A model generated the notes under the pieces. That model was given only the letters and a program-made list of their open reading frames with translations. It was not told the DNA's origin and ran no database searches. Shown piece after piece: positions 4,546 to 32,860 of a stretch of 64,000 nucleotides of DNA. Positions within the stretch are counted from its first letter, which is position 1; every line of letters begins with the position of its first letter. Position numbers and translations under genes: made by a program. The stretch lies in NCBI GenBank assembly GCA_016125405.1, contig WGLW01000008.1, forward strand, positions 124,001 through 188,000, read 5' to 3'. Source of the stretch: Alphaproteobacteria bacterium (GTDB taxonomy: Bacteria > Pseudomonadota > Alphaproteobacteria > Caulobacterales > Hyphomonadaceae).

Positions 4546-6564
4546 TCAGAGCTTGCAATCGTTCTTGAGGAAATCACCGATCACGCCAAGGGATTCGCGA
4601 ACGTTGTCGGCCGTCCACTTGTCCATCTGGTGACCCATGTCCTTCATGATCACGAGCTTGGCGTTTCCGGTGGATTTCACGGCGTTGTAGAAATCCGTGG
4701 AATTGTAGAGCGGAACTCGCACATCGTGATCCCCGTGGAAGATCAGGATCGGCATCGATAGCTTGTCGGTGTTCTGGATGGGGTCCATCCCGGTCACCGT
4801 ACGTCCCTGGAACGAGCGCTGTTCCCGGTTTTCTCCCCAGTTGTTGGCTGTCTTCTGGAGATTGGACACGCCAGCGCCGGCGATTGCGCATTTGAAGGGT
4901 CCGCCGGGGCGAACCGATGCCGCGAATGCCGCAAATCCACCGTAAGAATAGCCGAAGATGGCGATCCTGTCCTTTGCGGCATACCCGTTCGCGACCATCC
5001 AGTTGGCGCCGTCGTCGTTGTCGTCCTGCATTTTCTTGCCCCACTCGAAGTCGCCCGCGAGCCAAAGCTGGTGCCCCCAGCCTTCGCTTCCGCGATATTG
5101 GGGTTGCAGCACTGCATAGCCCCGGGTCGCCAGGAATTGTGTCCACCCTGTCGGGTCCCAGCCGAGTTCGTCACGAGCCCAAGGTCCGCCATGCGGCAGG
5201 ACAACTGCGGGCGGCGGGGCATCTCCCTTCTTCCAGTCCGGCGGCAATGTAAGGAAGGCCGGTATCTTCAACCCGTCGCGTGCCTCGTAATAAACAAGCG
5301 AACGATCGCCCAGGGAGTCAGGCTTGATCCAGGGGCGCTCGCCGCCAATCGAGACGACCTTCGATTTGTTCAGCAGCAGGTAATAGGCGGGAGGGTTGCG
5401 TGGACTCTCCACGACGAAGAGAAGTTTCGATCGGTCGTCGGTCCAAGACTTAAGTTCGACGTTCTGCCCCTTGAAGGCTCCGGAAAGGCCTTCGGCGATC
5501 GACTTCAACTCCGGATCGACCCAATAGACCATAGGGTCGGGTCCCCAGTAACGAAAGCCGAGAATCTTGCCAAAGTCCGATGGGTGGCGGCCAAGCACAA
5601 CGCCGGTCGCGTCGTAGGCTTCGTGACGGAACAGCGGCTCGTCGTCAAACTTCTGGGTTTTGGCGTCGTACAGATAAACAGCAGCCTTGTCCGAGAACTT
5701 GTCCGTAACGACAAAGTATTTTCCCGTTTTTTCGTCGTAGGCCTGAACGTTCATCTGACGCCGGTCGCTGAAGCTTACGGTAAGCGGCGTCTGTAGATCG
5801 AAATTCCCGGTGTCGGGATTCAGGATGTAGGTTTCAGACTCGTATTCGAGATTGCCGATCGGTTTGACGCGAACCTTTGTGCGCACACGACCATCGCGTG
5901 GGTCGATAAGATCAATCTGCTGGTCGCCTGTATCGCGATAGAGGTTTTCTGTCCGTCCAGTTTTCAGGTTGACCTTGAGATAGCGCGATTCAAGCGAAAC
6001 GGTGTCCAGGCGCCGCACAATGACGTTTTCGGGATCAAGCGGCAGATCCATGATCGACGGGGATGTCGCCAGCTCCAGGCAGCGCAACGTCGCGGCGCTT
6101 ATGCCAGTTGTGGGAGCCTTTGCGAGAACGTCATCGAATTTCTTGATCGATGTATCGGTGAGAAACGCCTTGTAGACATACGTCTTGGTCGAGCCTGTTG
6201 TCTTGCCTTCGCCGCATCCGTTGAGGGCGCCGGTCCAAGCCTGGTTGGCCAAAACGATGACTTTTCCGGTTTTGAATATCTGGGCGCCCTGAAAGGCCAT
6301 CCGGCCTTCGCTTGGCGTGATGCTTTTGGGCGCCAGCGGCTTGCTGGTGTCAATCGAGGAGATGTCCCAGCTGGCGAGGGCAGGGTCGTCAGTGTTGCGC
6401 GGGTCCGCGACAATTCCGACGAGAGCCGTTCCATCGGGCGACATGTCTACCCGGGTGACATTCGGAACCCGGGCCATTGCGTCAGCATCCAGCGCCTGCG
6501 CAGCAGCTCCTCCTACTCCGAAGAAAAAGGCAGCCGACGCCATTCCTAGCAGGCTTCTGAGCAT
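4546..6564 (-). CDS. Secreted S9 (prolyl oligopeptidase) family peptidase
   Basis: 672 aa from the ATG at 6564, which has GAGGG six bases upstream. The first 23 or so residues form a signal peptide ending near AAAQA. A beta-propeller-like region (about 25-400) precedes an alpha/beta-hydrolase domain with the nucleophile motif GYSYGGF (Ser near 540), Asp in HGDHDVRVPL (near 613) and His in MGHQMDKW (near 645), so the triad is complete. The family cleaves short peptides in the periplasm or outside the cell. Divergent from a TonB receptor across 285 bp, which suggests shared control and a role in peptide scavenging (inference). The frame extends upstream to 6942, but that part has no family similarity I can see. 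Confidence 0.88.
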   Translation of the reverse strand: MLRSLLGMASAAFFFGVGGAAAQALDADAMARVPNVTRVDMSPDGTALVGIVADPRNTDDPALASWDISSIDTSKPLAPKSITPSEGRMAFQGAQIFKTGKVIVLANQAWTGALNGCGEGKTTGSTKTYVYKAFLTDTSIKKFDDVLAKAPTTGISAATLRCLELATSPSIMDLPLDPENVIVRRLDTVSLESRYLKVNLKTGRTENLYRDTGDQQIDLIDPRDGRVRTKVRVKPIGNLEYESETYILNPDTGNFDLQTPLTVSFSDRRQMNVQAYDEKTGKYFVVTDKFSDKAAVYLYDAKTQKFDDEPLFRHEAYDATGVVLGRHPSDFGKILGFRYWGPDPMVYWVDPELKSIAEGLSGAFKGQNVELKSWTDDRSKLLFVVESPRNPPAYYLLLNKSKVVSIGGERPWIKPDSLGDRSLVYYEARDGLKIPAFLTLPPDWKKGDAPPPAVVLPHGGPWARDELGWDPTGWTQFLATRGYAVLQPQYRGSEGWGHQLWLAGDFEWGKKMQDDNDDGANWMVANGYAAKDRIAIFGYSYGGFAAFAASVRPGGPFKCAIAGAGVSNLQKTANNWGENREQRSFQGRTVTGMDPIQNTDKLSMPILIFHGDHDVRVPLYNSTDFYNAVKSTGNAKLVIMKDMGHQMDKWTADNVRESLGVIGDFLKNDCKL

Positions 6565-6849: not shown

Positions 6850-9810
6850 ATGTCCAACAACAGCGCGGCACTGCGCAGATTTTTCCTTGGCGGCGCCGCC
6901 ATTGGGGCTTTGGTCTTTTCGTCGGGGGCAGGCTGGGCCCAAACGCCGCCGGCCGGCAGCACAACCGATTCAACGTCGACCGTAGACCAGACCAAGCCAC
7001 CGCCGCCGCAAGCCAAGCAGGACACGGACGAGCGCGTGATCATTACAGGCTCCCGCATCAAGCAGGATCCCTACACGGCCGCTGCCCCGATCGAGGTGAT
7101 TACCTCGGAGTCAGCGGTTCTGGCGGGGGTTATCGACACGGCCGCCATCCTCCAGGGCTCGACTACCGCATCGGGTTCTACCCAGCTGAACAACTCCTTC
7201 GGTTCGTTTGTCACCGAAGGCGGTACGGGCACGAACACGGTCTCGCTCCGGGGGCTTGGAGCTCAGCGCACCTTGGTTCTCCTGAACGGCCAGCGGCCGG
7301 GTCCGGCGGGTACACGAGGGCAGGTCGGGGCGTTTGACCTGAACACAATTCCGGACTCGATCATCAGCCGGGTTGAAATCCTTAAGGACGGCGCGTCGTC
7401 GATCTACGGTTCGGACGCCGTCGCCGGCGTCGCCAATATCATCACCCGGACGTCTGTCGATCGGCCGGAACTGACGATCCAGTACAACAACCCGGAAAAC
7501 CCCGGCGGCTCCACCTTTCAGGTGAACGGCGCCTACGGGCTCAACTTCTCGAACGGAAACATCGTGCTGGCGGGCCAGTACACGAAAATCGACCCGCTGG
7601 AATACGGCGACCGTGGCTATTCGCGTTGTGCGCAGGATATTGTCACCGACCCGACAACCGGCGCTCGCCTCGACCGCCAGGACCGTTCGATCCTGCAGGG
7701 CACGTCGCTCGCCGGCTGCAACAACATCTATTTCAATACGGTCATCAACTATTTCAACAGCGGCACGCGCTACATCCCGTCGCCGGACGGGGTAACCGTC
7801 GGTCCTTTCCCTGGCTACCGCCCCCGGAACAACAAGACGTATGCAACCTCGCCGGACGGCGTGGCCTACTACGAGGACGTGCTGAACGATCCGCGGTACC
7901 TGAAAGGCTACTTCCTCGACCAGCAGGAACGCACCAGCCTGTACGGCCGTTCGGACTTCACATTCGGCAACATCGAATGGACGGCCGAGGCGCTGTTCAC
8001 GCAACGCCAGACGACTGCCCACAACTGGCGGCAGTTCTTCCCGATCATCGGGGGGAGCGCGTTCTATGATGTGCCTGGCCCGTACACGGCCCCGTCCGGC
8101 CCCACGTCGGCCTACGAGCCCGTCACGATCTGGCCGTCGAACCAGTCAATCAACGTCAAGTACTACTACCTTACGACTGGACTGAAGGGAGGTTTTGGCA
8201 GCAACGGGTACCTCTCGACCTGGTCCTGGAACGCCGACCTGAACTTCTCCCGTTCCGACGGGACATATGAGAAGAACCAGATTCTCAAGGAAACGGCGGG
8301 CGATGCGGCCTATGCAAGCCCGTCTGACGGTCTCTATCACGGCCCCACATACAACCCGTTCGACCCAACCTTCCTGGCCGGCAACTATTCGCAGGACGTC
8401 TACAACCTGCTGACCGGCTACAGCAAAGGCCGCACGATCTACGACCAGTCGTCGGTTTCGGCCGGCGTGACGGGCGACCTGTTCCGGTTGCCTGCAGGTC
8501 CTGTCGGCCTTGCCGCTGGCGTCGAGTACCGGGACTTCCGGATCAACGACAACCCCGGTCCTGGCTCGATCAACGGCGACTACTGGGGCACGTCGTCGGC
8601 CGACGTGACAAAGGGTCGGGATCATGTCACCGAAGAATACGCCGAGGTGAGCATTCCCGTGGTCAAGGGGCTGCCGGGGATCGAGGACCTCAACCTCAGC
8701 GGCTCTGGACGCTGGTTTGACTACGACTCCTACGGTTCGAACAGCGTCTGGAAAGCCGGCATCAACTGGCAGGTCATCCCGATGCTGCGGTTCCGCGGAA
8801 CCAAGGGTACGTCCTACCGCGCTCCGGCTCTGTACGAGCTGTACCTCGGCAACCAGACGGGCTTCTTCAGCCAGCTGTCGATCGACCCCTGCATCGACTG
8901 GGGCAACAGCACCAACGTCAACATCCAGAAGAACTGCGCGACGGCGGGCATTCCGTCCGACTACACCGGCGCGGGGTCGTCTGCCACGATCTCGACCGGC
9001 GGCGGTCTCGGAACGCTTAAAGCGGAAGATTCCGAATCCTCCACGCTCGGCGTCATCTTCACGCCGGCCTTCCTCGATCTCTCGATCGCGATCGACTACT
9101 TCGACATCACGATCAACAACGAGGTTGGAACGCTCAGTGCTGCGACGATCCTGGGTGGTTGCTACGGCGCTCCGGTCTACCCGAACGCCTTCTGCAGCCT
9201 GTTCACCCGGAACCCGGGTACCGGCGGAAACCCGTACAACGTCACCTACGTCAACGCGAACTACATCAACGTGAACCAGCAGGCGACGCACGGCATCGAC
9301 TACAACGTGCGTTACGAGCACGAGTTCAACTTCGGCAAGCTGCTCGTTGACCTCAAAGCCACGCAGACGATGGAAGATGTTCAGTTGCTCTTCGATCCGA
9401 ACCTCGCGTCCGGCTTCGACACCAGCGACTTCAATGGCACGTCCGGCGATCCGAAGTGGGTCGGGGACGCTCAGTTCCAGCTGAAACGCGGAGATGTTAC
9501 CTACTCGTGGTTCTCGCACTATGTGGGCGCCACCAACAACTCGGTGTTCGCCAACGAACAAATCTCCTACCAGGGTCTGACCGTGAACCAGATCATCAAG
9601 GCGGACGACTGGTGGTCGCATGACGTCTCGGTTCGCTGGCAGGGCGATCACTTGACCATCGTGGGCGGGATTTCGAACATCTTCGATGCCCAGCCGCCGA
9701 TCCTTTCCTCCAACGGTGGGGCCCAGCGCCTGCAGAACATCGCCCTGGCGGGAACGCAGTACGACTATCTGGGCCGCACGTTCTTCCTGCGCATTGGCAC
9801 GAAGTTCTGA
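6850..9810 (+). CDS. TonB-dependent outer-membrane receptor
   Basis: 986 aa from the ATG at 6850 (GGGG seven bases before it). An in-frame TTG at 6823 is less likely. The signal peptide ends near SGAGWAQ. A plug domain follows (about residues 60-190: VIITGSRI, VSLRGLGAQRTLVLLNGQRP, SRVEILKDGASSIYGSDAVAG), then a long barrel rich in alternating aromatic strands ending in a terminal Phe (FLRIGTKF), the outer-membrane assembly signal. Such receptors import siderophores, sugars or peptides with TonB-ExbBD energy. The divergent secreted peptidase hints at a peptide substrate, but this is inference. Transcription ends at the hairpin just downstream. Confidence 0.92.
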   Translation: MSNNSAALRRFFLGGAAIGALVFSSGAGWAQTPPAGSTTDSTSTVDQTKPPPPQAKQDTDERVIITGSRIKQDPYTAAAPIEVITSESAVLAGVIDTAAILQGSTTASGSTQLNNSFGSFVTEGGTGTNTVSLRGLGAQRTLVLLNGQRPGPAGTRGQVGAFDLNTIPDSIISRVEILKDGASSIYGSDAVAGVANIITRTSVDRPELTIQYNNPENPGGSTFQVNGAYGLNFSNGNIVLAGQYTKIDPLEYGDRGYSRCAQDIVTDPTTGARLDRQDRSILQGTSLAGCNNIYFNTVINYFNSGTRYIPSPDGVTVGPFPGYRPRNNKTYATSPDGVAYYEDVLNDPRYLKGYFLDQQERTSLYGRSDFTFGNIEWTAEALFTQRQTTAHNWRQFFPIIGGSAFYDVPGPYTAPSGPTSAYEPVTIWPSNQSINVKYYYLTTGLKGGFGSNGYLSTWSWNADLNFSRSDGTYEKNQILKETAGDAAYASPSDGLYHGPTYNPFDPTFLAGNYSQDVYNLLTGYSKGRTIYDQSSVSAGVTGDLFRLPAGPVGLAAGVEYRDFRINDNPGPGSINGDYWGTSSADVTKGRDHVTEEYAEVSIPVVKGLPGIEDLNLSGSGRWFDYDSYGSNSVWKAGINWQVIPMLRFRGTKGTSYRAPALYELYLGNQTGFFSQLSIDPCIDWGNSTNVNIQKNCATAGIPSDYTGAGSSATISTGGGLGTLKAEDSESSTLGVIFTPAFLDLSIAIDYFDITINNEVGTLSAATILGGCYGAPVYPNAFCSLFTRNPGTGGNPYNVTYVNANYINVNQQATHGIDYNVRYEHEFNFGKLLVDLKATQTMEDVQLLFDPNLASGFDTSDFNGTSGDPKWVGDAQFQLKRGDVTYSWFSHYVGATNNSVFANEQISYQGLTVNQIIKADDWWSHDVSVRWQGDHLTIVGGISNIFDAQPPILSSNGGAQRLQNIALAGTQYDYLGRTFFLRIGTKF

Positions 9811-22884: not shown

Positions 22885-22899
22885 ATGGCGGAAGGGGTG
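22885..22899. repeat. attL: left 15-bp direct repeat
   Basis: Identical to 32772-32786; a copied remnant of the tRNA-Ser 3' end. The 8-mer GCCAGAAC also occurs near both ends inside the element (22946-22953 and 32744-32751), a possible arm site, though chance is not excluded. The remaining sequence up to the integrase (22900-23071) shows no gene. Confidence 0.88.
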
Positions 22900-23071
22900 T
22901 CCAATTGAACGGGCTGCCTCCCGCCGCATCATCCTGCACCACACTGCCAGAACGGGACAGTTCCTCAATCCGCTCAGCGTGTTGAGGCTGCCCACAACTG
23001 TCTGACCCTGCCTGCCACTGCCCCCGAATGGCCCGCCGATTGATGGACATTTCGGATGGGAGTTTGTGGCG

Positions 23072-24334
23072 ATGCCGAAGATTATGCCGACGATGACCGC
23101 GAAGGCGGTGGAGGCCCTGAAAGAGGGCGGGTTGCACGCTGTGGGCGGCGCACCGGGACTGTTCCTCAAGATAGTCCCGCCGAACAGCAGGTATTGGGTC
23201 TATCGCTACTCCCTGCGCGACGGCCAGCGGAGAGAGATGGGGCTCGGCGGCACGTTTGACGTGTCGCTCAGCGATGCGCGGACACGGGCGCTTGCATTGC
23301 GTGCGGCTGTGCGTGCCGGCGCGGACCCGGTTGCCGACAAGAGGGCAGAGCGCGCGGCGCGAGCCAAGCCGGCGCAGGCTGTCACCTTCAAGGATGCGGC
23401 TGAGGCATACGTCGCAACGCTTGAGGTGACGTGGCGCAATGACAAGAGCGGCTGGGCCGGATCGCTTGAGAACCACGTCTATCCGAAGATTGGCGCACTG
23501 CCTGTGGCCGATGTAGGCAAGCCCGAGGTGCTGAGCGTGCTTCAACCCATCTGGCACGTTGGCGAAGGCGGCAGGCTGGATACGGCCATGAAGCTCAGAG
23601 GCCGCATTGAGAAGATACTGGACTATGCGCGGGAGGCTGATTGGCGTCCCGAGGGACCAAATCCAGCGACGTGGCAAGGCCGTTTGGACAAGTCGCTGAC
23701 TGCGCCGGGCCTGTTGCGGAAGAAAGTGCCGAGGAAACACCATGACGCCATCCCGATTGATGGCATTGGCGATTTCATGCGCCAGCTGGCGAAGGTGGAA
23801 GGCATGGGCGCGCGGTGCCTTGAGTTTGTGACGTTGACCGCCGTGCGCAGCGGCGAAGCGCGCGGCGCGGTGTGGGCAGAGATAGACCTAGACCGGAAGG
23901 TGTGGACCATTCCAGGCGAGCGCATGAAGGCCGGCAAAGAGCACCGCGTGCCATTGTCCACGCAAGCGGTGGCGTTGCTCAAGACGATGCCTCAGCTTGA
24001 GGGCACGGACCTTGTGTTCCCTTCCCCACAGAGCAACAGCAAGCTCAGCGACATGACGTTGTTGTCTGTGATGAAGCGGATGAAAGCCAATGGCGTGCCG
24101 CATGGTATGCGCTCCACCTTCCGCGATTGGGCTTTCGAGCGCACCAATTTCGCACGCGAGATTGCTGAGGTGGCGCTTGCCCACACCAACGGCGACAAGG
24201 TGGAGGCCGCTTACAGACGCGGCGATGCACTTGAGAAACGGCGCTTGCTGATGCAGGCGTGGGCTGACTTTGTGGACAAGCCATCGGTTAAAGACGGCGG
24301 CAACGTGGTGCCGCTCAACGCCGCAGCGGGCTAA
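23072..24334 (+). CDS. int: Tyrosine recombinase (P4-type integrase)
   Basis: 420 aa from the ATG at 23072 (GGGAG 9 bases upstream); the GTG at 23066 is too close to that site. An N-terminal arm-binding domain of the DUF4102 type (about 10-90), a core-binding region and a catalytic domain with TAVRSGEARG (Arg), HGMRSTFRDW (His, Arg), LAHTNGDKVEAAYRRGD (His and the nucleophile Tyr). All catalytic residues are present, so it should be active. Family members integrate at tRNA 3' ends, which matches the tRNA-Ser repeat. It lies next to attL, distant from the intact tRNA. Confidence 0.95.
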   Translation: MPKIMPTMTAKAVEALKEGGLHAVGGAPGLFLKIVPPNSRYWVYRYSLRDGQRREMGLGGTFDVSLSDARTRALALRAAVRAGADPVADKRAERAARAKPAQAVTFKDAAEAYVATLEVTWRNDKSGWAGSLENHVYPKIGALPVADVGKPEVLSVLQPIWHVGEGGRLDTAMKLRGRIEKILDYAREADWRPEGPNPATWQGRLDKSLTAPGLLRKKVPRKHHDAIPIDGIGDFMRQLAKVEGMGARCLEFVTLTAVRSGEARGAVWAEIDLDRKVWTIPGERMKAGKEHRVPLSTQAVALLKTMPQLEGTDLVFPSPQSNSKLSDMTLLSVMKRMKANGVPHGMRSTFRDWAFERTNFAREIAEVALAHTNGDKVEAAYRRGDALEKRRLLMQAWADFVDKPSVKDGGNVVPLNAAAG

Positions 24335-25426: not shown

Positions 25427-25525
25427 TTCCCAATCCCTAATTTCGGGCGCGAGTTTCTGTACACACGCCCCACCGCGCAGAAAGCCTAATGCGCTAACCT
25501 ACGTCAATGCGACCGGAGGTTGGGC

Positions 25526-26452
25526 ATGGTGCGTGTGAGCGTGAAATCGCAGGGTTCATTTAGCGGGCCGGGCGCTGTGGGCGCAGGCGTTGTGGTGGCG
25601 TTTCTCGCCATCACTATCCCGCCTGCGGTGTGGGTTGTGCTGGTTGTTTGCGTTGGTGCTGGTGTCGTCTTTTACATTCGCCACAAGACCCGCAAAGCAG
25701 AGCAAGACCGCATCGCCCGAGAACAGGCTGAGGCCGCTGAGCGCCGCGAGTTGGACACCCATTTGGCGAAACACAGCCGCACCTTGTCCGTGCGCTATGC
25801 CGGCCTTGCAGCCGCGAACGGCTACGGCACACCCGATGCGCCTGCGTGGGCCAAAGAGATTCAACGATTTGCGGACAGCGTAGGTTTCAGGCCGGCTTTC
25901 CTCGCACCTGAAATGGTCCACGCGCTTGTGACGGCGCATGTTGAGGCGCAGCGTCAGCAACCATCGAGCCCACAGCCATCAGCATGGCCGGCTGAGGCGA
26001 TGAATGACCCGATGGCTTTTGAGCACGCGTGTGCCGATCAGCTGCGTGCGCTCGGATGGGACGCCAACACTACCGGCGGCAGCGGTGACCAAGGGATTGA
26101 TGTGCAAGCGCGCAAAGGCGGCGTGCGCGTGGTGCTGCAATGCAAGCTCTACTCGCAAGCTGTGGGCAATGGCGCGGTGCAGGAAGCGTTGTCGGGCAAG
26201 GCGTTCGCCAAGGCGCACATCGCGGCGGTGGTTTCTAATGCAGGCTTCACGCGTAAGGCGCATGAGCTTGCGGCGGCAACGGGCGTCATGCTTTTGCACC
26301 ACACAGAGCTTGCCCGGATTGATGAGCAAGCGCTGCGGCTGAGGCAGGCGTATGCGGCGCGCAAAGCCGCTGCCGCACCTGTGACCGCGAGTGAGCCGGC
26401 TGGCACGCCGGTAGAGCGCGGCATCATGGGCAACGTCAGGAAATCGGCTTAG
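25526..26452 (+). CDS. Membrane-anchored Mrr-like restriction endonuclease
   Basis: 308 aa, ATG with GGAGGT five bases upstream. Two transmembrane segments near the N-terminus (about 13-50: AGVVVAFLAITIPPAVWVV and VVCVGAGVVFYI), a basic coiled region (about 53-80), then a C-terminal Mrr-type nuclease domain (about 160-270) with GGSGDQGIDVQ and VVLQCKLYS. Asp in GIDV and the QxK of LQCK form the PD-(D/E)xK-type active site, and the site is complete. Mrr-type enzymes cut modified or foreign DNA; a membrane anchor suggests action on DNA at entry or on membrane-bound complexes (inference). Eleven bases separate it from the next gene. Confidence 0.82.
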   Translation: MVRVSVKSQGSFSGPGAVGAGVVVAFLAITIPPAVWVVLVVCVGAGVVFYIRHKTRKAEQDRIAREQAEAAERRELDTHLAKHSRTLSVRYAGLAAANGYGTPDAPAWAKEIQRFADSVGFRPAFLAPEMVHALVTAHVEAQRQQPSSPQPSAWPAEAMNDPMAFEHACADQLRALGWDANTTGGSGDQGIDVQARKGGVRVVLQCKLYSQAVGNGAVQEALSGKAFAKAHIAAVVSNAGFTRKAHELAAATGVMLLHHTELARIDEQALRLRQAYAARKAAAAPVTASEPAGTPVERGIMGNVRKSA

Positions 26453-27578: not shown

Positions 27579-28286
27579 TCAGGCAGCAGCGCCCTCAATT
27601 ACGGGATCAGCCGGGCGCGAGGCATGGGCCTCAGCCGCTTTCTCGCTGCTCACGCCGTAGATGACGGTACGCCACACGTCCTTGTGGCCCTTGGCCAAAT
27701 CCAACAGTTCAGCCGCTTGGTCAGCCTTGGCTTTAATCTCAGGCTGAAACTTGGCGAGAAAGCTGTTGGTCAGGCCCTCTTTCACGCTTGGCGCAAAGTG
27801 TGGGTGGATCAGTTCACGCGGGCTTAGCGCGATCACAGCGGCAACTTGTGGGTCGGCCATCATGGAACGCAGATTTTCAATCTCGCCCTTGCCCACATAG
27901 CGCTCAGCCATTTCATAGATGCGCGCTTGCATGGCTTGGCTAGGAAGCTGTGATTTCCAGTACGCCACCGCTTCCGCCTCGACCTCAGCGCCAAGGTCTT
28001 TAGCCTCAGCCGTCAGCTTGTCCTCAGTCGCGCGCAACACAGCCGCAGCGGCCTTGGCAGCTTTCCACGCGCTGGCATGTTTCTCGGTCTGAGGCATTAC
28101 GCCAACGGGCGTGGTGTGCAGCTGGCCAAGGTATTCAACGAGGGTGATGACAGCCTTATGGCCTGCCTCAATGTCAGAGCGGAAGCGCTTGACGGTTTTT
28201 ACGTCGCCAAGTTTTTCCGTGCGCTCAAGTGCGCTGTTGAGGGTCCAAACTCTTTCCGGGTTGAGGGCGAAAATCGGTCGGGTCAT
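27579..28286 (-). CDS. Unknown protein of the element's leftward operon
   Basis: 235 aa, mostly alpha-helical by eye, with charged and Ala-rich stretches (KAAKAAAAVLRATEDKL, about 75-91) and no signal peptide or membrane helix. No domain recognised. ATG at 28286 with a weak GAAAG site. Last gene of the run 29731-27579; codon use is like a true gene, with a long frame and no competing frame. A DNA- or protein-binding accessory role is a guess only. Confidence 0.65.
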   Translation of the reverse strand: MTRPIFALNPERVWTLNSALERTEKLGDVKTVKRFRSDIEAGHKAVITLVEYLGQLHTTPVGVMPQTEKHASAWKAAKAAAAVLRATEDKLTAEAKDLGAEVEAEAVAYWKSQLPSQAMQARIYEMAERYVGKGEIENLRSMMADPQVAAVIALSPRELIHPHFAPSVKEGLTNSFLAKFQPEIKAKADQAAELLDLAKGHKDVWRTVIYGVSSEKAAEAHASRPADPVIEGAAA

Positions 28287-28319
28287 GTGGGCGTTCTTTC
28301 GTGTTGCATGTGGGGAGGG

Positions 28320-28736
28320 TTAGGTGCGTGCGAATGCGGGGAAGGTTGAGGGCGTGAATGTGGGCGTCGGCTTGGGCTGGCGTTGAGGCTTGGGCGGTTG
28401 CTTCGCGGCTTCCTCAGCGGCCCTGCGCTCAGCTTGTGCGGCCTCTGAGCGTGCGATTTGCGCCGCCCCTTCCGCGATCAAAAGCGTTTGCTGGCATTCG
28501 ATGTACTCGCGCACGCCCGTGTCATCCGCATCAAAGGCGGGCGCAGGGTGCGCGTCAGCAGTCAACTCAATGCCGGACGCGATGGCAGCGGCTCGCGCCT
28601 TCGCCACCTCACCATGCCAGTCCAGCGCACAAGCGCGCGAGAGCTTGATGAGGAACAACTTGGCCGGGCCAGAGGGCGCGGGCTTGGCCAGCAACAGGGC
28701 CTCAAGCGCGGACAGGCGGTCGGTGATGCGGGCCAT
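28320..28736 (-). CDS. Unknown small protein with Pro/Lys-rich tail
   Basis: 138 aa. N-terminal helix (ITDRLSALEALLLA), a middle segment, an Ala/Glu/Arg helix (about 88-112) and a Pro/Thr/Lys-rich C-terminus (QPPKPQRQPKPTPTFTPS), which looks like a flexible tail. No known domain. Its ATG overlaps the preceding stop (TAATG), so translation is coupled to the 101-aa gene upstream. Confidence 0.6.
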   Translation of the reverse strand: MARITDRLSALEALLLAKPAPSGPAKLFLIKLSRACALDWHGEVAKARAAAIASGIELTADAHPAPAFDADDTGVREYIECQQTLLIAEGAAQIARSEAAQAERRAAEEAAKQPPKPQRQPKPTPTFTPSTFPAFART

Positions 28737-29041
28737 TACGCAGCCCTCCCCACAGGATGCAGGCGAGCCTTTGCGGCTTCCTCCAACGCCTCAATACGTG
28801 CCTCGAAATCGCGGCCTTCAATGAGCCGGGCCTGCACTTGAAGGATGTGCGCGAGCTTGGACACGTCATCAATGCGCGCCTTGCCGTCCATCCATTTGCG
28901 GACGTAGCGAGCCAACAGCATTGAGCAATGCCGCGTCGTGTCCAACCGCTGACGTGTTGGCTTACGCTCAACGGTCGGTCCCCACACCGGGGGTGCGTCG
29001 GGAACGTCAGGCGTAGCGGGGATTTGAGCGTCAGTGGACAT
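28736..29041 (-). CDS. Unknown small helical protein
   Basis: 101 aa. Disordered N-terminus rich in Pro/Asp (about 1-25), then helices (CSMLLARYVRKWMDGKARI and HILQVQARLIEGRDFEARIE). No family recognised. Coupled to the next gene by TAATG. In the same leftward operon. Confidence 0.6.
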   Translation of the reverse strand: MSTDAQIPATPDVPDAPPVWGPTVERKPTRQRLDTTRHCSMLLARYVRKWMDGKARIDDVSKLAHILQVQARLIEGRDFEARIEALEEAAKARLHPVGRAA

Positions 29042-29056
29042 GCGAAATTCCGTGGC

Positions 29057-29422
29057 TTAGGCGACGCTATCGAGGTCGGGCGTGTAAAATTGCTGGCGCT
29101 CATACGCGGCGATGAGTTGGTTTTGCCTCAGCTTCCCGCCATTGAGCGGCGCACCGTCTGGCGCATAAGCGAACACAAAGACGGCAACGTCACGCAGGTG
29201 CTTGGGAATGAGGTTTCTGTCTGTGGCCGTCACCATGTTGTAGTCGTCATTCCGACGCCATTCTTGACCCCTGCCGATGCGAAGCAAGGCACAACAATTG
29301 TCCAACGCCTGAATGATGCGAAGCTCATCGTAGTTGGGAGCGTCACCGGCAAGGAACATCGCCACGATGTTCCCTGATGCGAAATCGCCCAAGACCTTTA
29401 GGTTGCCGGTGTGCTCGCCCAT
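29057..29422 (-). CDS. Unknown small protein
   Basis: 121 aa, mixed alpha/beta by eye, no signal peptide or membrane helix (segments GNIVAMFLAGDAPNYDELRI and RDVAVFVFAYAPDGAPLNGG). No domain recognised. Three bases separate its start from the stop of the gene upstream, and 15 bases lie between its stop and the next start, as expected for an operon. Confidence 0.6.
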   Translation of the reverse strand: MGEHTGNLKVLGDFASGNIVAMFLAGDAPNYDELRIIQALDNCCALLRIGRGQEWRRNDDYNMVTATDRNLIPKHLRDVAVFVFAYAPDGAPLNGGKLRQNQLIAAYERQQFYTPDLDSVA

Positions 29423-29425
29423 GGC

Positions 29426-29731
29426 TCAGCCTCCACCAGATGGCGGCAAGTAGAACCGATAGAAGGCGTCAGCCGTCGCAGGGATGGCCTCGGGATAGAC
29501 CGCGTACACAACGTCCGCTGACGGGCTAGAGCCGCGTGCTGGATCGCCGGCAGGGATATGCACAATCCTCTGAAACATGGTCTGCATACGGACGATGGCC
29601 GCTTGCTCATCGGCGTCAGGCGCGGTGCCGAGCCAATAGAAAGCGACCGTCGCGAGGTGCGGGCTGTTCGGTCCAAGACCCTGATAGCGGCTGATGTCCA
29701 TGGCGGGCGGTCCAGATGAGGCGGGCCGCAT
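29426..29731 (-). CDS. Unknown small protein, first gene of leftward small-gene run
   Basis: 101 aa from the ATG at 29731 (GGGG about 9 bases upstream); an internal ATG at 29701 is also possible and gives a cleaner N-terminus (MDISRYQGLG). Contains HLATVAFYWLGTAPDADEQ and VVYAVYPEAIPATADAFYRF. No family recognised. Follows the repeat-rich 29732-30145 region, where its promoter should lie. Confidence 0.5.
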   Translation of the reverse strand: MRPASSGPPAMDISRYQGLGPNSPHLATVAFYWLGTAPDADEQAAIVRMQTMFQRIVHIPAGDPARGSSPSADVVYAVYPEAIPATADAFYRFYLPPSGGG

Positions 29732-29807
29732 TCTCGCTGCCCCACTACAAACATCCGATACTTTGTCCGAACAGTCTAGAGTTCCGCTGTAAATAGTTTT
29801 CGTAGGC

Positions 29808-29817
29808 GCTTTAAAGC
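29808..29817. promoter_or_regulatory. Palindrome GCTTTAAAGC, copy 2
   Basis: Perfect 10-bp palindrome about 80 bases upstream of the small-gene run (ATG 29731), in the AT-rich presumptive promoter zone. Identical to copies at 27568 and 32661. Confidence 0.55.
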
Positions 29818-29980
29818 ATCAATCGGACCAACGCTAATAGTGTTATTGTATGTTACCTTAGTATTACGTCTTGCGATGTGGCGGTGACTGACGCGATGCC
29901 CACATGCATCACTTGTGCGGAGGACATGTCCGCCATTGAGGCCGCAAAACATTGGGCTTAATGACGTTTGCCCACACGCA

Positions 29981-30120
29981 TCCGCCAACGTGTCCGCCAA
30001 CGTGCCCGTGTCCGCGCGTGAAAGCGGTGCCTCTTCAAATCTTCAAATCATCAAAGATTGGCGACACCATCGCGGCCACGATCCGCAGGTTTGACAATCT
30101 TGGACAATCTTTGATGATTT
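29981..30120. repeat. Iteron-like repeats beside the helicase gene
   Basis: Seen in order: TCCGCCAACGTG twice in tandem (29981-30004); TCTTCAAA, TCTTCAAA, TCATCAAA in tandem (30032-30055); GACAATCTT twice at a 10-base period (30093-30101 and 30103-30111); and a perfect 16-bp inverted repeat, AAATCATCAAAGATTG (30045-30060) against its complement at 30105-30120, with a 44-base loop. The helicase gene stops 26 bases away. This resembles a replicon origin. Confidence 0.6.
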
Positions 30121-30145
30121 TTTGTTGGGGGATCGACGTGCGGGC

Positions 30146-31678
30146 CTAGTTGAACAATGGCCCTTGGTCAGGACGTGGTGCCCATCCAAAGACGGCCCAC
30201 ATTGTCAGACCTTGAAAGCCCTGCGTGACAGATTGAATGCCAAGTGCTTTGCGCGCGTTGTTCAACGTGTCGTAGCCGATGCCAGCTTCCTTGGCCTTGG
30301 CAACAAGTTGGTTCTGCTCAACTGGCCCGTCCTTTAGCGCCACTGCTAGAAACGCTTTTGCGGCCTCAACCTTGTTGAGCGGTTTGCGGCCAAAGCTTCC
30401 GGTGTCAGGCTTGAGCATGTCGTCAGCCGACATCGCCACCTCGCCCGTCTCAAATCTGATGTAGGGCGCTTTGGTGGTGCCACGCTTGGTGGGAATGTCC
30501 TTTTCCTCAACGCGGTATGCAAGCCCACTGACCTTGCGACCAATGTTTTTCTTGATGAGCAAGAACAGCGCGCGGCCCGTTTCTATGCGCTGGCCATCAT
30601 CATCCTTCTCAAACTCGGGACCGATGAACCACGCCGCTCGCGATGCGCCAACGAATGCCTTTGCTCCCGTGACAGCGTTGATGGCCTTGCCGCCCGCCGC
30701 AACCTTTGGCGGGTGCGCGACACAGACCACAGCCACATCGTGCCTCGCGGCAAAGTCAGCGACCGGCTCAAGCACGGCGCGCACTGCCGCCTCTTTGTGG
30801 GTATCAACGTCACCCATGTACGCGCTCACTGGATCAATGATGATGAGACGCACCTTGCGCCCGAGCCTGTCCACGCGCGCCAGCACGGCTTCAAGCTTGG
30901 CTAGGTCAGTTTGCAGACTGATACCACGGCGCTTGCCGTCACCCTCAGCCACCGCCTTGGCGACGTGAACACGGCTCAGGTCTGCGCCGGCTGCCTCAAG
31001 GCGTGGCCGCATGGTGTCGGCAACGTCATCCTCACAGGCCAGAATGACAACATCGCCGTCCGGTGCGCTGCCCTCGTTGTTCGGCCATGCGCCGCCGTTG
31101 GTGGTCTGAGCGGCCATGAACAACGTGAATTGGGATTTCCCTTGGCCCGGCTCGCCTGCAATGATGTGGAGCTTGCCGAGCGCAAAACGCTCAGGCCATA
31201 GCCAATCAATTTCCTCAGCCTCAACCTCAGACACGGTGATAATGTCGAATCCGCCACCGGGCTTGGGCGCTGTGGGCACCAGCCTCTTTCTCAACGCCTC
31301 GCACGCTTCCTCTGATGCAATTTGGTGCTCAGCCGGGCACGGCATGGCCTTCGCGCTAAACCATTCGGCCTTTGACGGCTCAAGCGCCAGCATGAAAGGC
31401 CGGAACACCGTGCCTTCAATGTCACGCACACTGTGCCGCTCAAAGTCGGCACCACATGCCGCCGAAATATACTCAGCCTCACGCCTACGCGCCATCGCCA
31501 GCGCGTGCGGATCAGCGGACGTGATGGGCCAGTAGAGAGTGTGGCGCGCACCTTTGTATTCGTCGCCAATGCACTCAAGGGTAATGACCTTGTTCTTGCC
31601 GTCGCCTTTGGCGCTGTCTTTCGTCTCAATGCTGACGATGCAGACGTAATGATTGCCGATGGGAAGCCGCTTACTCAA
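30146..31678 (-). CDS. RepA-like AAA/RecA-fold replicative helicase
   Basis: 510 aa, TTG start at 31678 with AAGGGAAG about 6 bases upstream, overlapping the preceding stop (TTGA). A N-terminal domain (about 1-135) precedes a RecA-type ATPase with Walker A GEPGQGKSQF (near 175) and Walker B VRLIIIDPVSAYMG (near 265), plus VVCVAHPPK (sensor) near 305. The C-terminal part (about 440-500: AKAFLAVALKDGPVEQNQLV) looks like a winged helix. The family includes RSF1010-type RepA helicases and phage/plasmid replication ATPases. Lies next to the iteron-like repeats. Confidence 0.85.
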   Translation of the reverse strand: MSKRLPIGNHYVCIVSIETKDSAKGDGKNKVITLECIGDEYKGARHTLYWPITSADPHALAMARRREAEYISAACGADFERHSVRDIEGTVFRPFMLALEPSKAEWFSAKAMPCPAEHQIASEEACEALRKRLVPTAPKPGGGFDIITVSEVEAEEIDWLWPERFALGKLHIIAGEPGQGKSQFTLFMAAQTTNGGAWPNNEGSAPDGDVVILACEDDVADTMRPRLEAAGADLSRVHVAKAVAEGDGKRRGISLQTDLAKLEAVLARVDRLGRKVRLIIIDPVSAYMGDVDTHKEAAVRAVLEPVADFAARHDVAVVCVAHPPKVAAGGKAINAVTGAKAFVGASRAAWFIGPEFEKDDDGQRIETGRALFLLIKKNIGRKVSGLAYRVEEKDIPTKRGTTKAPYIRFETGEVAMSADDMLKPDTGSFGRKPLNKVEAAKAFLAVALKDGPVEQNQLVAKAKEAGIGYDTLNNARKALGIQSVTQGFQGLTMWAVFGWAPRPDQGPLFN

Positions 31679-32124
31679 TGCACGCTTCCCTTGGCAAAGT
31701 GCCGACGCCAGTATGTGGCGCGTGCGGCGTCACGCATTTCCAGCAACGTGAGGAATGACCACGGCTCGCCAAAGGGCAGAAACTCATCCTGTGGGTAGGC
31801 ATCGCAATCGCGCGTCAGCAATAGCCCACAGCCGCAGAACTCACCGGACGCCAGTGCGCGGCGCAGGTGGTAGAAGCTGCGATAGGCAGGATCAGCGCGA
31901 TTGAACGTTGCCGGCCTGCCATCGCGCGGATTGAACAGCACGCGCCCGTGCGGACCTGTGCAGCGGAACACCACCCAAGCATCAAGATGGCGCACCGCAG
32001 ACGGCAGCGTGCGCGCGTCGATCAGCGGATGATTGCGGGTGCTGCAACGGCAGGCGTTTGGAGCGCGGAAAACGCGCTGTTGCGCATTGACGGATTGGGG
32101 CGTGATGCCCATAGCAGAGTGCAT
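31675..32124 (-). CDS. Putative primase-related protein (degenerate N-terminal domain)
   Basis: 149 aa. The order LDAWVVFRCTGPHGRVLFNP, DGRPATFNRADPAYRSFYHL, SGEFCGCGLLLTRDCDAY recalls the N-terminal domain of phage/plasmid primase-polymerase proteins (W...K.P.nP..G..A...dP.tW..f..A....g..G.G..l). The catalytic Asp pair normally following is not evident, so it may be a truncated or non-catalytic form. Coupled to the helicase by TTGA. The start could be ATG 32124 or 32112; neither has a strong Shine-Dalgarno. Role in element replication is inferred. Confidence 0.5.
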   Translation of the reverse strand: MHSAMGITPQSVNAQQRVFRAPNACRCSTRNHPLIDARTLPSAVRHLDAWVVFRCTGPHGRVLFNPRDGRPATFNRADPAYRSFYHLRRALASGEFCGCGLLLTRDCDAYPQDEFLPFGEPWSFLTLLEMRDAARATYWRRHFAKGSVH

Positions 32125-32175: not shown

Positions 32176-32373
32176 TTAGGCGGCTGACCTACCGCTCCAC
32201 GCTTCGATGTCAGCGCGTGAGAACAGAATGACCCGCCCAAGTTTCTTGTGCGGGGGCAGCTGACCGGCTTTCAGCATTCGCCAGAACGTTCGCTCAGAAA
32301 CAGGCAGCATGGCCTGAAAGTCCTTGGCGCGAAGGAAAGCCTTCGGCGCATCCGGGGTGGCATCGGCAGTCAT
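32176..32373 (-). CDS. AlpA-like excisionase/regulator (MerR-type helix-turn-helix)
   Basis: 65 aa from the ATG at 32373 with AAGGA about 10 bases upstream; a TTG at 32403 would extend it by 10 residues. FLRAKDFQAMLPVSERTFWR followed by MLKAGQLPPHKKLGRVILFS and RADIEAW is the AlpA/DUF-type DNA-binding fold, which in P4-like elements works as a recombination directionality factor or transcription activator of int. First gene of the leftward replication operon; a small palindrome and repeated ACAACTTA motifs lie just upstream. Confidence 0.85.
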   Translation of the reverse strand: MTADATPDAPKAFLRAKDFQAMLPVSERTFWRMLKAGQLPPHKKLGRVILFSRADIEAWSGRSAA

Positions 32374-32771
32374 TTCCAGTGTCCTTTCGGCTGGCGGTGG
32401 CAACTAAGGACAACTTAGCAAAGAGCGGGCCGAATACTACCCCTCAACTGCGCTTTTTCTTCCGTACTTTCAACAACTTAAGCCACTATGCTTAGACAAC
32501 AGCAAGAGGCGTAAGTAATCACAAGTATAGACGTTGGATGATGGCAACAGAGGCGGCGTTGGCCACCACCTCAAGCCTCGCCACAGACACCACCACAGCG
32601 CTCGCCACAGGGGATCGCGCGGCTTTGCGTTTGCACGTAAGCGAAGGCTTCACCTCGACGGCTTTAAAGCACGTGCGTAGAACGAAGCCGCGCGGAAGCG
32701 CGAACCGTATGGTGGACTTTTTGGAGGGAGTGGCGAGCTAAAGGCCAGAACCGCAGTGTTCTCAGGCGGTG
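32374..32771. promoter_or_regulatory. Control region upstream of the AlpA-like gene and right end of the element
   Basis: 398 bp. The part next to the gene has CTAAG-N5-CTTAG (32404-32418), an ACAACTTA repeat (32410-32417 and 32473-32480) and an AT-rich stretch (32450-32530), together a likely promoter/operator. A rightward 67-codon frame (32538-32741) ends near attR; it has no good ribosome site or domain and I do not call it. The third GCTTTAAAGC copy (32661-32670) falls in this region. Confidence 0.5.
32661..32670. promoter_or_regulatory. Palindrome GCTTTAAAGC, copy 3
   Basis: Identical to copies at 27568-27577 and 29808-29817; about 100 bases inside the right end of the element. Confidence 0.5.
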
Positions 32772-32772
32772 A

Positions 32773-32860
<88 letters not shown>

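Follow-up and report, generated by a model that had tools for sequence, protein, structure and literature searches.

A candidate iteron-type replication origin behind the AAA_25 helicase gene of an integrated alphaproteobacterial mobile element

A cluster of short direct and inverted repeats directly 3' of a helicase gene is probably the replication origin of an integrated mobile element of about 9.9 kb, of a PICI- and pRN1-like design and read by the winged helix of the helicase itself. The element lies within a 64-kb stretch of DNA (hereafter the window). This reading draws on the repeats, their position, their capacity to form structure, the borders of the element and the recurrence of the same layout in distant relatives, and it implies that binding, helicase loading, melting and replication would take place at the candidate origin. 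The proposed sequence of events would start with excision of the element to yield a circle. The helicase, with its RecA-fold, RSF1010 RepA-like motor, would then bind iterons directly 3' of its own gene via its C-terminal winged helix; the opposed repeats and a long hairpin would either serve to load a pair of helicase assemblies that face in opposite directions or make single strands accessible for priming; melting would take place in the AT-rich stretch beside the repeats, and the circle would be replicated by host enzymes.

The mobile element and its genes

The repeats belong to an element of approximately 9.9 kb that is inserted at the 3' end of a tRNA-Ser gene (32773-32860, minus strand). 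Its borders are marked by a 15-bp direct repeat, ATGGCGGAAGGGGTG, read on the plus strand at 22885-22899 (attL) and again at 32772-32786 (attR), the latter at the tRNA-Ser 3' end and evident also from the comparison of occupied and empty loci. In several sister genomes from the genus, tRNA-Phe and tRNA-Ser are about 0.6-1.4 kb apart. The distance is 10.6 kb here, and removal of the element would leave a native gap of about 0.7 kb; the intervening DNA is itself not conserved. Because this spacing is shorter at the apparently empty sister loci, the comparison supports an insertion of the element in the source lineage. Another genome of the genus (L143) has, at the 3' end of the same tRNA-Ser gene, an integrase-like sequence related to that of the window.

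A tyrosine integrase (23066-24334, plus strand; Pfam Arm-DNA-bind_3, Phage_int_M and Phage_integrase) is encoded at one end of the element, and from the other end a leftward operon runs through an AlpA-like protein, a 149-aa protein, a 510-aa AAA_25 helicase, a gap and five small genes. The AlpA-like HTH_17 protein (32176-32403, minus strand; Pfam HTH_17, E 6.9e-12; PHROG excisionase) is the first gene of the replication operon. The 149-aa protein that adjoins the helicase (31675-32124, minus strand) has no match in Pfam, PHROG or NCBIfam, and could, at a guess, be a putative primase remnant. Of the five small genes of the downstream operon (27579-29731, minus strand), four have homologues in the same order in a sister element, L163 (tblastn). 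An Mrr-like restriction endonuclease gene (25520-26452; Pfam Mrr_cat, with partial PADLOC matches to ZorD and mREase_IV) is likely to be defence cargo. DNA searches gave no useful match of the gap to phages or of the element to plasmids, the one plasmid match falling outside the gap.

The helicase and its C-terminal domain

The original prediction described a RepA-like helicase gene next to the repeats, and the gene does encode a RecA-fold AAA_25 helicase of 510 aa (30146-31678, minus strand; Pfam AAA_25, E 4.7e-29), the proposed initiator. The structural model has a mean pLDDT of 79.9, with a confident RecA-type core whose blocks mostly exceed 90 and a poorly modelled region over the first 150 residues. 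The best solved folds are RecA/RadA/Rad51 proteins and RepA, the hexameric helicase of RSF1010 (1nlf, 1olo); a sequence search of the PDB returned no match, and the likeness to RSF1010 RepA is thus at the level of the fold. Separate from the core, residues 436-496 (30191-30373, minus strand) form a C-terminal domain with three helices and two strands (H436-447, H455-464, H469-478, E481-486 and E491-496), and the model shows a winged-helix topology for this part, the proposed iteron reader. At the opposite end, residues 1-75 (31453-31678) are modelled as strands with low confidence; we take this N-terminus to resemble a phage single-strand-binding (DUF669-like) domain, a likeness that no family search supports.

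The repeat cluster

The candidate origin region is the non-coding gap of 390 bp between the helicase stop and the next gene (29755-30145), inside the leftward operon. It holds no convincing ORF, and an Rfam scan returned only tRNAs as credible hits. All repeats that had been described from the sequence are present at their positions by direct reading and repeat search. The first set of iteron-like repeats (set A) consists of TCCGCCAACGTG twice in tandem on the plus strand (29981-29992 and 29993-30004), which read on the helicase strand is of the CGTTGGCGGACA type. Two further members had been overlooked: a third, degenerate 12-mer copy (TGTCCGCCA) from 29927, and an inverted copy of the core at 30058-30064, TTGGCGA on the plus and TCGCCAA on the minus strand. 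The latter is a single 7-mer, and the degenerate core has chance copies elsewhere in the element. Set B, TCTTCAAA TCTTCAAA TCATCAAA, occupies 30032-30055 (plus strand) with a period of 8, and all four copies of TC(A/T)TCAAA in the 9.9-kb element lie inside the cluster. Two copies of GACAATCTT follow with a period of 10 (30093-30101 and 30103-30111, plus strand); AAGATTG occurs four times in the element; three of these copies belong to the cluster, two on one strand and the third on the opposite one.

The cluster also contains a perfect 16-bp inverted repeat, with its left arm, AAATCATCAAAGATTG, at 30045-30060 and its right arm, CAATCTTTGATGATTT, at 30105-30120 (both given on the plus strand). 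The loop between the arms measures 44 nt, and the resulting stem-loop of 76 nt begins about 26 bp past the helicase stop. It is the only perfect inverted repeat of at least 14 bp (span below 150) across the 64-kb window. A perfect 14-bp inverted repeat that pairs the gap (29936-29949) with the winged-helix coding region of the helicase (30356-30369) is marginal and may be due to chance.

The repeats are far beyond chance expectation. Across 300 dinucleotide shuffles of 29755-30145, perfect inverted repeats extended to 13 bp at most and never to 16; a tandem score of 13, or two such arrays, was seen in 0 of 2000 shuffles. As single-stranded DNA, the repeat stretch folds better than its shuffled versions on both strands (z -4.5 for the plus and -3.2 for the minus strand).

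The base composition needs some revision of the original prediction, which had the repeats in an AT-richer stretch: the 140 bp that it named are richer, but only mildly so (47% AT against about 39-40% in the element), and the gap as a whole has 49% AT. The most AT-rich stretch of the window, at 29751-29890, had escaped notice. Its peak at 29771-29870 (61% AT), the AT-richest 100 bp of the 64 kb, sits about 100 bp beyond the repeats, away from the helicase, and is a candidate melting region; it may also, or instead, be a promoter.

Recurrence of the layout in distant relatives

An alignment-based scan that included two class-level relatives yielded 80 genome loci and 41 viral loci, with helicases that are 23-50% identical. 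Single-protein scans of genome and viral contigs had found no relative, and family- and order-wide genome searches no close relative of the helicase. None above 50% identity was found, so the comparison of the repeat letters covers distant relatives. An alignment whose rows were too divergent yielded no patterns and was dropped. Exact 7-mer sets were set aside as a measure as well; their background is high (54/101 vs 1006/2310), and for this reason 8-mers and array scores were used.

Among the relatives, tandem arrays (units of 7-14 bp) peak sharply within 200 bp past the helicase stop. In 90 non-redundant relatives, clustered at 70% identity and with the window excluded, this interval contains 14 arrays where 1.26 are expected (11-fold, P ~9e-11), mostly with periods of 8-10. 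Sets of at least three exact 8-mers, counted on either strand, are present at 29 of 103 helicase 3' ends (p 2e-10); the other ORFs of these loci have them at 42 of 711 3' ends, and the helicase genes at 6 of 97 5' ends. In 25 of the 29 helicase 3' ends with such sets, both orientations occur. Clear inverted sets are legible in L084, L023, L039, L077, L100, L105, L049 and L083. In L084, for example, CCGCCAA occurs twice ahead of the stop and TTGGCGGCC in tandem behind it, while L023 has AAGATGC twice ahead and GCATCTT twice behind. The TTGGCGG core is repeated 3' of the helicase in both L084 and L060, with close forms in L108 and L004. L060 also has a 69-bp inverted copy of its downstream repeat block, at about base 924 of the helicase gene and 16 bp past the stop; an inverted repeat copy inside the helicase gene was considered as a general feature and rejected, since it is conspicuous in L060 and L163 but does not extend to the relatives at large.

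The set in the window scores in the array test, fails the test for three exact 8-mers and ranks among the weaker members; its case rests on shorter, degenerate units together with the inverted repeat. A minority of relatives carry strict arrays, and either the layout is not universal or the measure is blunt. The AT excess past the helicase stop is on average slight across relatives and is not used as family-level support. The original prediction had named conservation of the repeats in elements that share the helicase as its own check: in these distant relatives the letters are not conserved, whereas place and design recur. Iteron-like sets, direct and inverted, follow the helicase gene at its 3' end, by strict measures in a minority of cases only. 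With the layout recurring in relatives, the proposed iteron origin stands as a candidate.

The repeat unit appears to follow the C-terminal domain of the helicase rather than its motor. When two helicases have three or more repeated 7-mers in common, their C-terminal domains resemble each other more closely than the identity of their ATPase domains predicts (label permutation p 0.0015), whereas the converse comparison of ATPase cores against C-terminal domains is not significant (p 0.20). If one shared 7-mer is required, the C-terminal effect only reaches p 0.06, and the pairs share ancestry and are not independent. Repeats of the CCGCCAA type are common to the window, L060 and L084, and the C-terminal domain of L060 ties as the most similar to that of the window, while its ATPase core ranks 53rd of 86. 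Set A is therefore likely to provide the iterons, with the hairpin and set B probably forming a second element.

The sister element L163 comes from another species of the same genus. Behind a DUF3987 helicase rather than an AAA_25 helicase, it has counterparts of four of the five downstream genes in unchanged order. Three 9-bp repeats of the GGTGACAAT type lie about 14 bp past the stop of this helicase gene, the AT-richest stretch is found beyond them in the same gap, and 26 bp of the downstream repeat block recur in inverted form within the helicase gene (4772-4797 and 6183-6208). The helicase is exchanged and the repeats differ, as expected if the repeats belong to the replication module. 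The integrase and the replication genes of L163 run in one direction. The conserved block of four small genes (27579-29422 in the window, 6768-8608 in L163) occurs in elements with different helicases, and a Vsr mismatch endonuclease gene (8857-9270) adjoins the last gene of the sister element.

Alternative explanations of the repeats

The inverted repeat might be the intrinsic (Rho-independent) terminator of a plus-strand transcript that runs toward the helicase, the other repeats being incidental. Its right arm runs into TTTTTT on the plus strand, and the RNA folds well (z -4.5). However, an A/T-rich stem and a loop of 44 nt are atypical of terminators, a terminator scan found none, and no convincing plus-strand gene ends there. 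The helicase strand has no T-run past the second arm, and for this reason the inverted repeat does not end the helicase transcript either. The arrays at the same place in relatives are left unexplained, and the terminator reading is weakened to the point of being unlikely. Slightly less likely again, the repeats would be operators for a regulator (AlpA, an autoregulating helicase or another protein) of a promoter in the AT-rich stretch that serves the five downstream genes. The AT-richest DNA is directly upstream of the next gene, and short direct and inverted repeats are typical of operators too. The repeats themselves, however, lie some 200-400 bp upstream of that gene and beside the helicase stop, they keep this position with respect to the helicase in relatives whose downstream genes are unrelated, and their unit is tracked by the similarity of the helicase C-terminus.

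For parts of the cluster, terminator and operator functions are possible. It is very improbable that the repeats are the remnant of a decayed gene or a chance build-up of simple repeats: short plus-strand ORFs, with translations of 59 and 65 aa, run through the region, and the frame is maintained across the 12-bp repeats, but the shuffle tests and the positional enrichment in relatives speak against this origin of the cluster.

Comparison with known replication systems

As in iteron-type origins, several short direct repeats lie in non-coding DNA beside the gene of a proposed initiator, with an AT-rich region adjacent. PICI origins are found immediately 3' of rep and have two iteron sets flanking an AT-rich region (PMC6092414), and the C-terminal domains of SaPI Rep and SCCmec Cch2 recognise iterons downstream of their genes (PMC7581432). 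The element described here shares with PICIs and SaPIs its small size, a defined att site, an integrase, AlpA and a replication gene, as well as the candidate origin immediately 3' of the initiator helicase gene, the repeat sets, the AT-rich stretch and, as proposed here, a C-terminal recognition domain; the order of AlpA, replication gene and putative origin is also that of PICIs. Unlike SaPI Rep, the helicase is an AAA_25 protein with the RecA-type fold of RSF1010 RepA and has no demonstrated kinship to SaPI Rep. The two sets are opposed and the strongest AT-rich stretch lies outside rather than between them. In Gram-negative PICIs the integrase and replication genes are transcribed in one direction (PMC6092414), whereas the integrase here lies on the opposite strand, at the far end of the element. 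Among the genes of the element none is recognised as a PICI packaging or interference gene, and the small genes lack PHROG matches. Since the integrase arrangement differs, and the comparison covers sequence rather than induction or packaging, we do not class the element as a PICI.

In SCCmec, the helicase Cch2 binds direct repeats downstream of its operon via its C-terminal domain, the mode proposed here, and inverted repeats are found nearby (PMC7581432); these are dispensable for binding in that system, and helicase family and element both differ (PMC7581432). RSF1010 oriV combines iterons with the ssiA and ssiB hairpins and is served by RepA, RepB' and RepC (PMC4234260). A hexameric helicase fold of the RepA type and iterons plus a hairpin are common to both systems, but in RSF1010 a separate RepC reads the iterons, whereas the recognition domain here would be fused to the helicase. 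No RepC initiator or RepB primase family was found among the element proteins scanned. The pRN1 origin is a stem-loop of about 100 nt that starts 54 bp past the replication gene, and in pRN plasmid origins the form is conserved but the sequence is not (PMC4234260). The window resembles pRN1 and BIP-1 in that a large stem-loop follows the replication gene at a comparable distance (stem and loop of 16 and 44 here, 21 and 58 in pRN1; PMC4234260) and in that the protein has a winged helix. Unlike pRN1, with its SF3 helicase and fused prim/pol domain, the helicase here has no recognised primase domain, and iteron-like direct repeats accompany the stem-loop.

In the open-licence literature we found no report of iterons behind AAA_25 helicases. 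We tentatively suggest that AAA_25 RecA-fold helicases with a C-terminal winged helix could define a widespread class of self-reading replicons, present in elements of proteobacteria, planctomycetes and actinobacteria. A single protein would serve such a replicon as both motor and origin reader, opposed iteron sets directly behind its gene would form the origin, and the repeat unit would be predictable from the winged helix. Unnamed AAA_25 helicases of small mobile elements would then become replicons open to testing, with origins and a recognition domain that can be predicted. Overall, the comparison suggests that a helicase fold other than those of PICIs, SCCmec and pRN1 also works with an origin placed directly behind the gene of the initiator.
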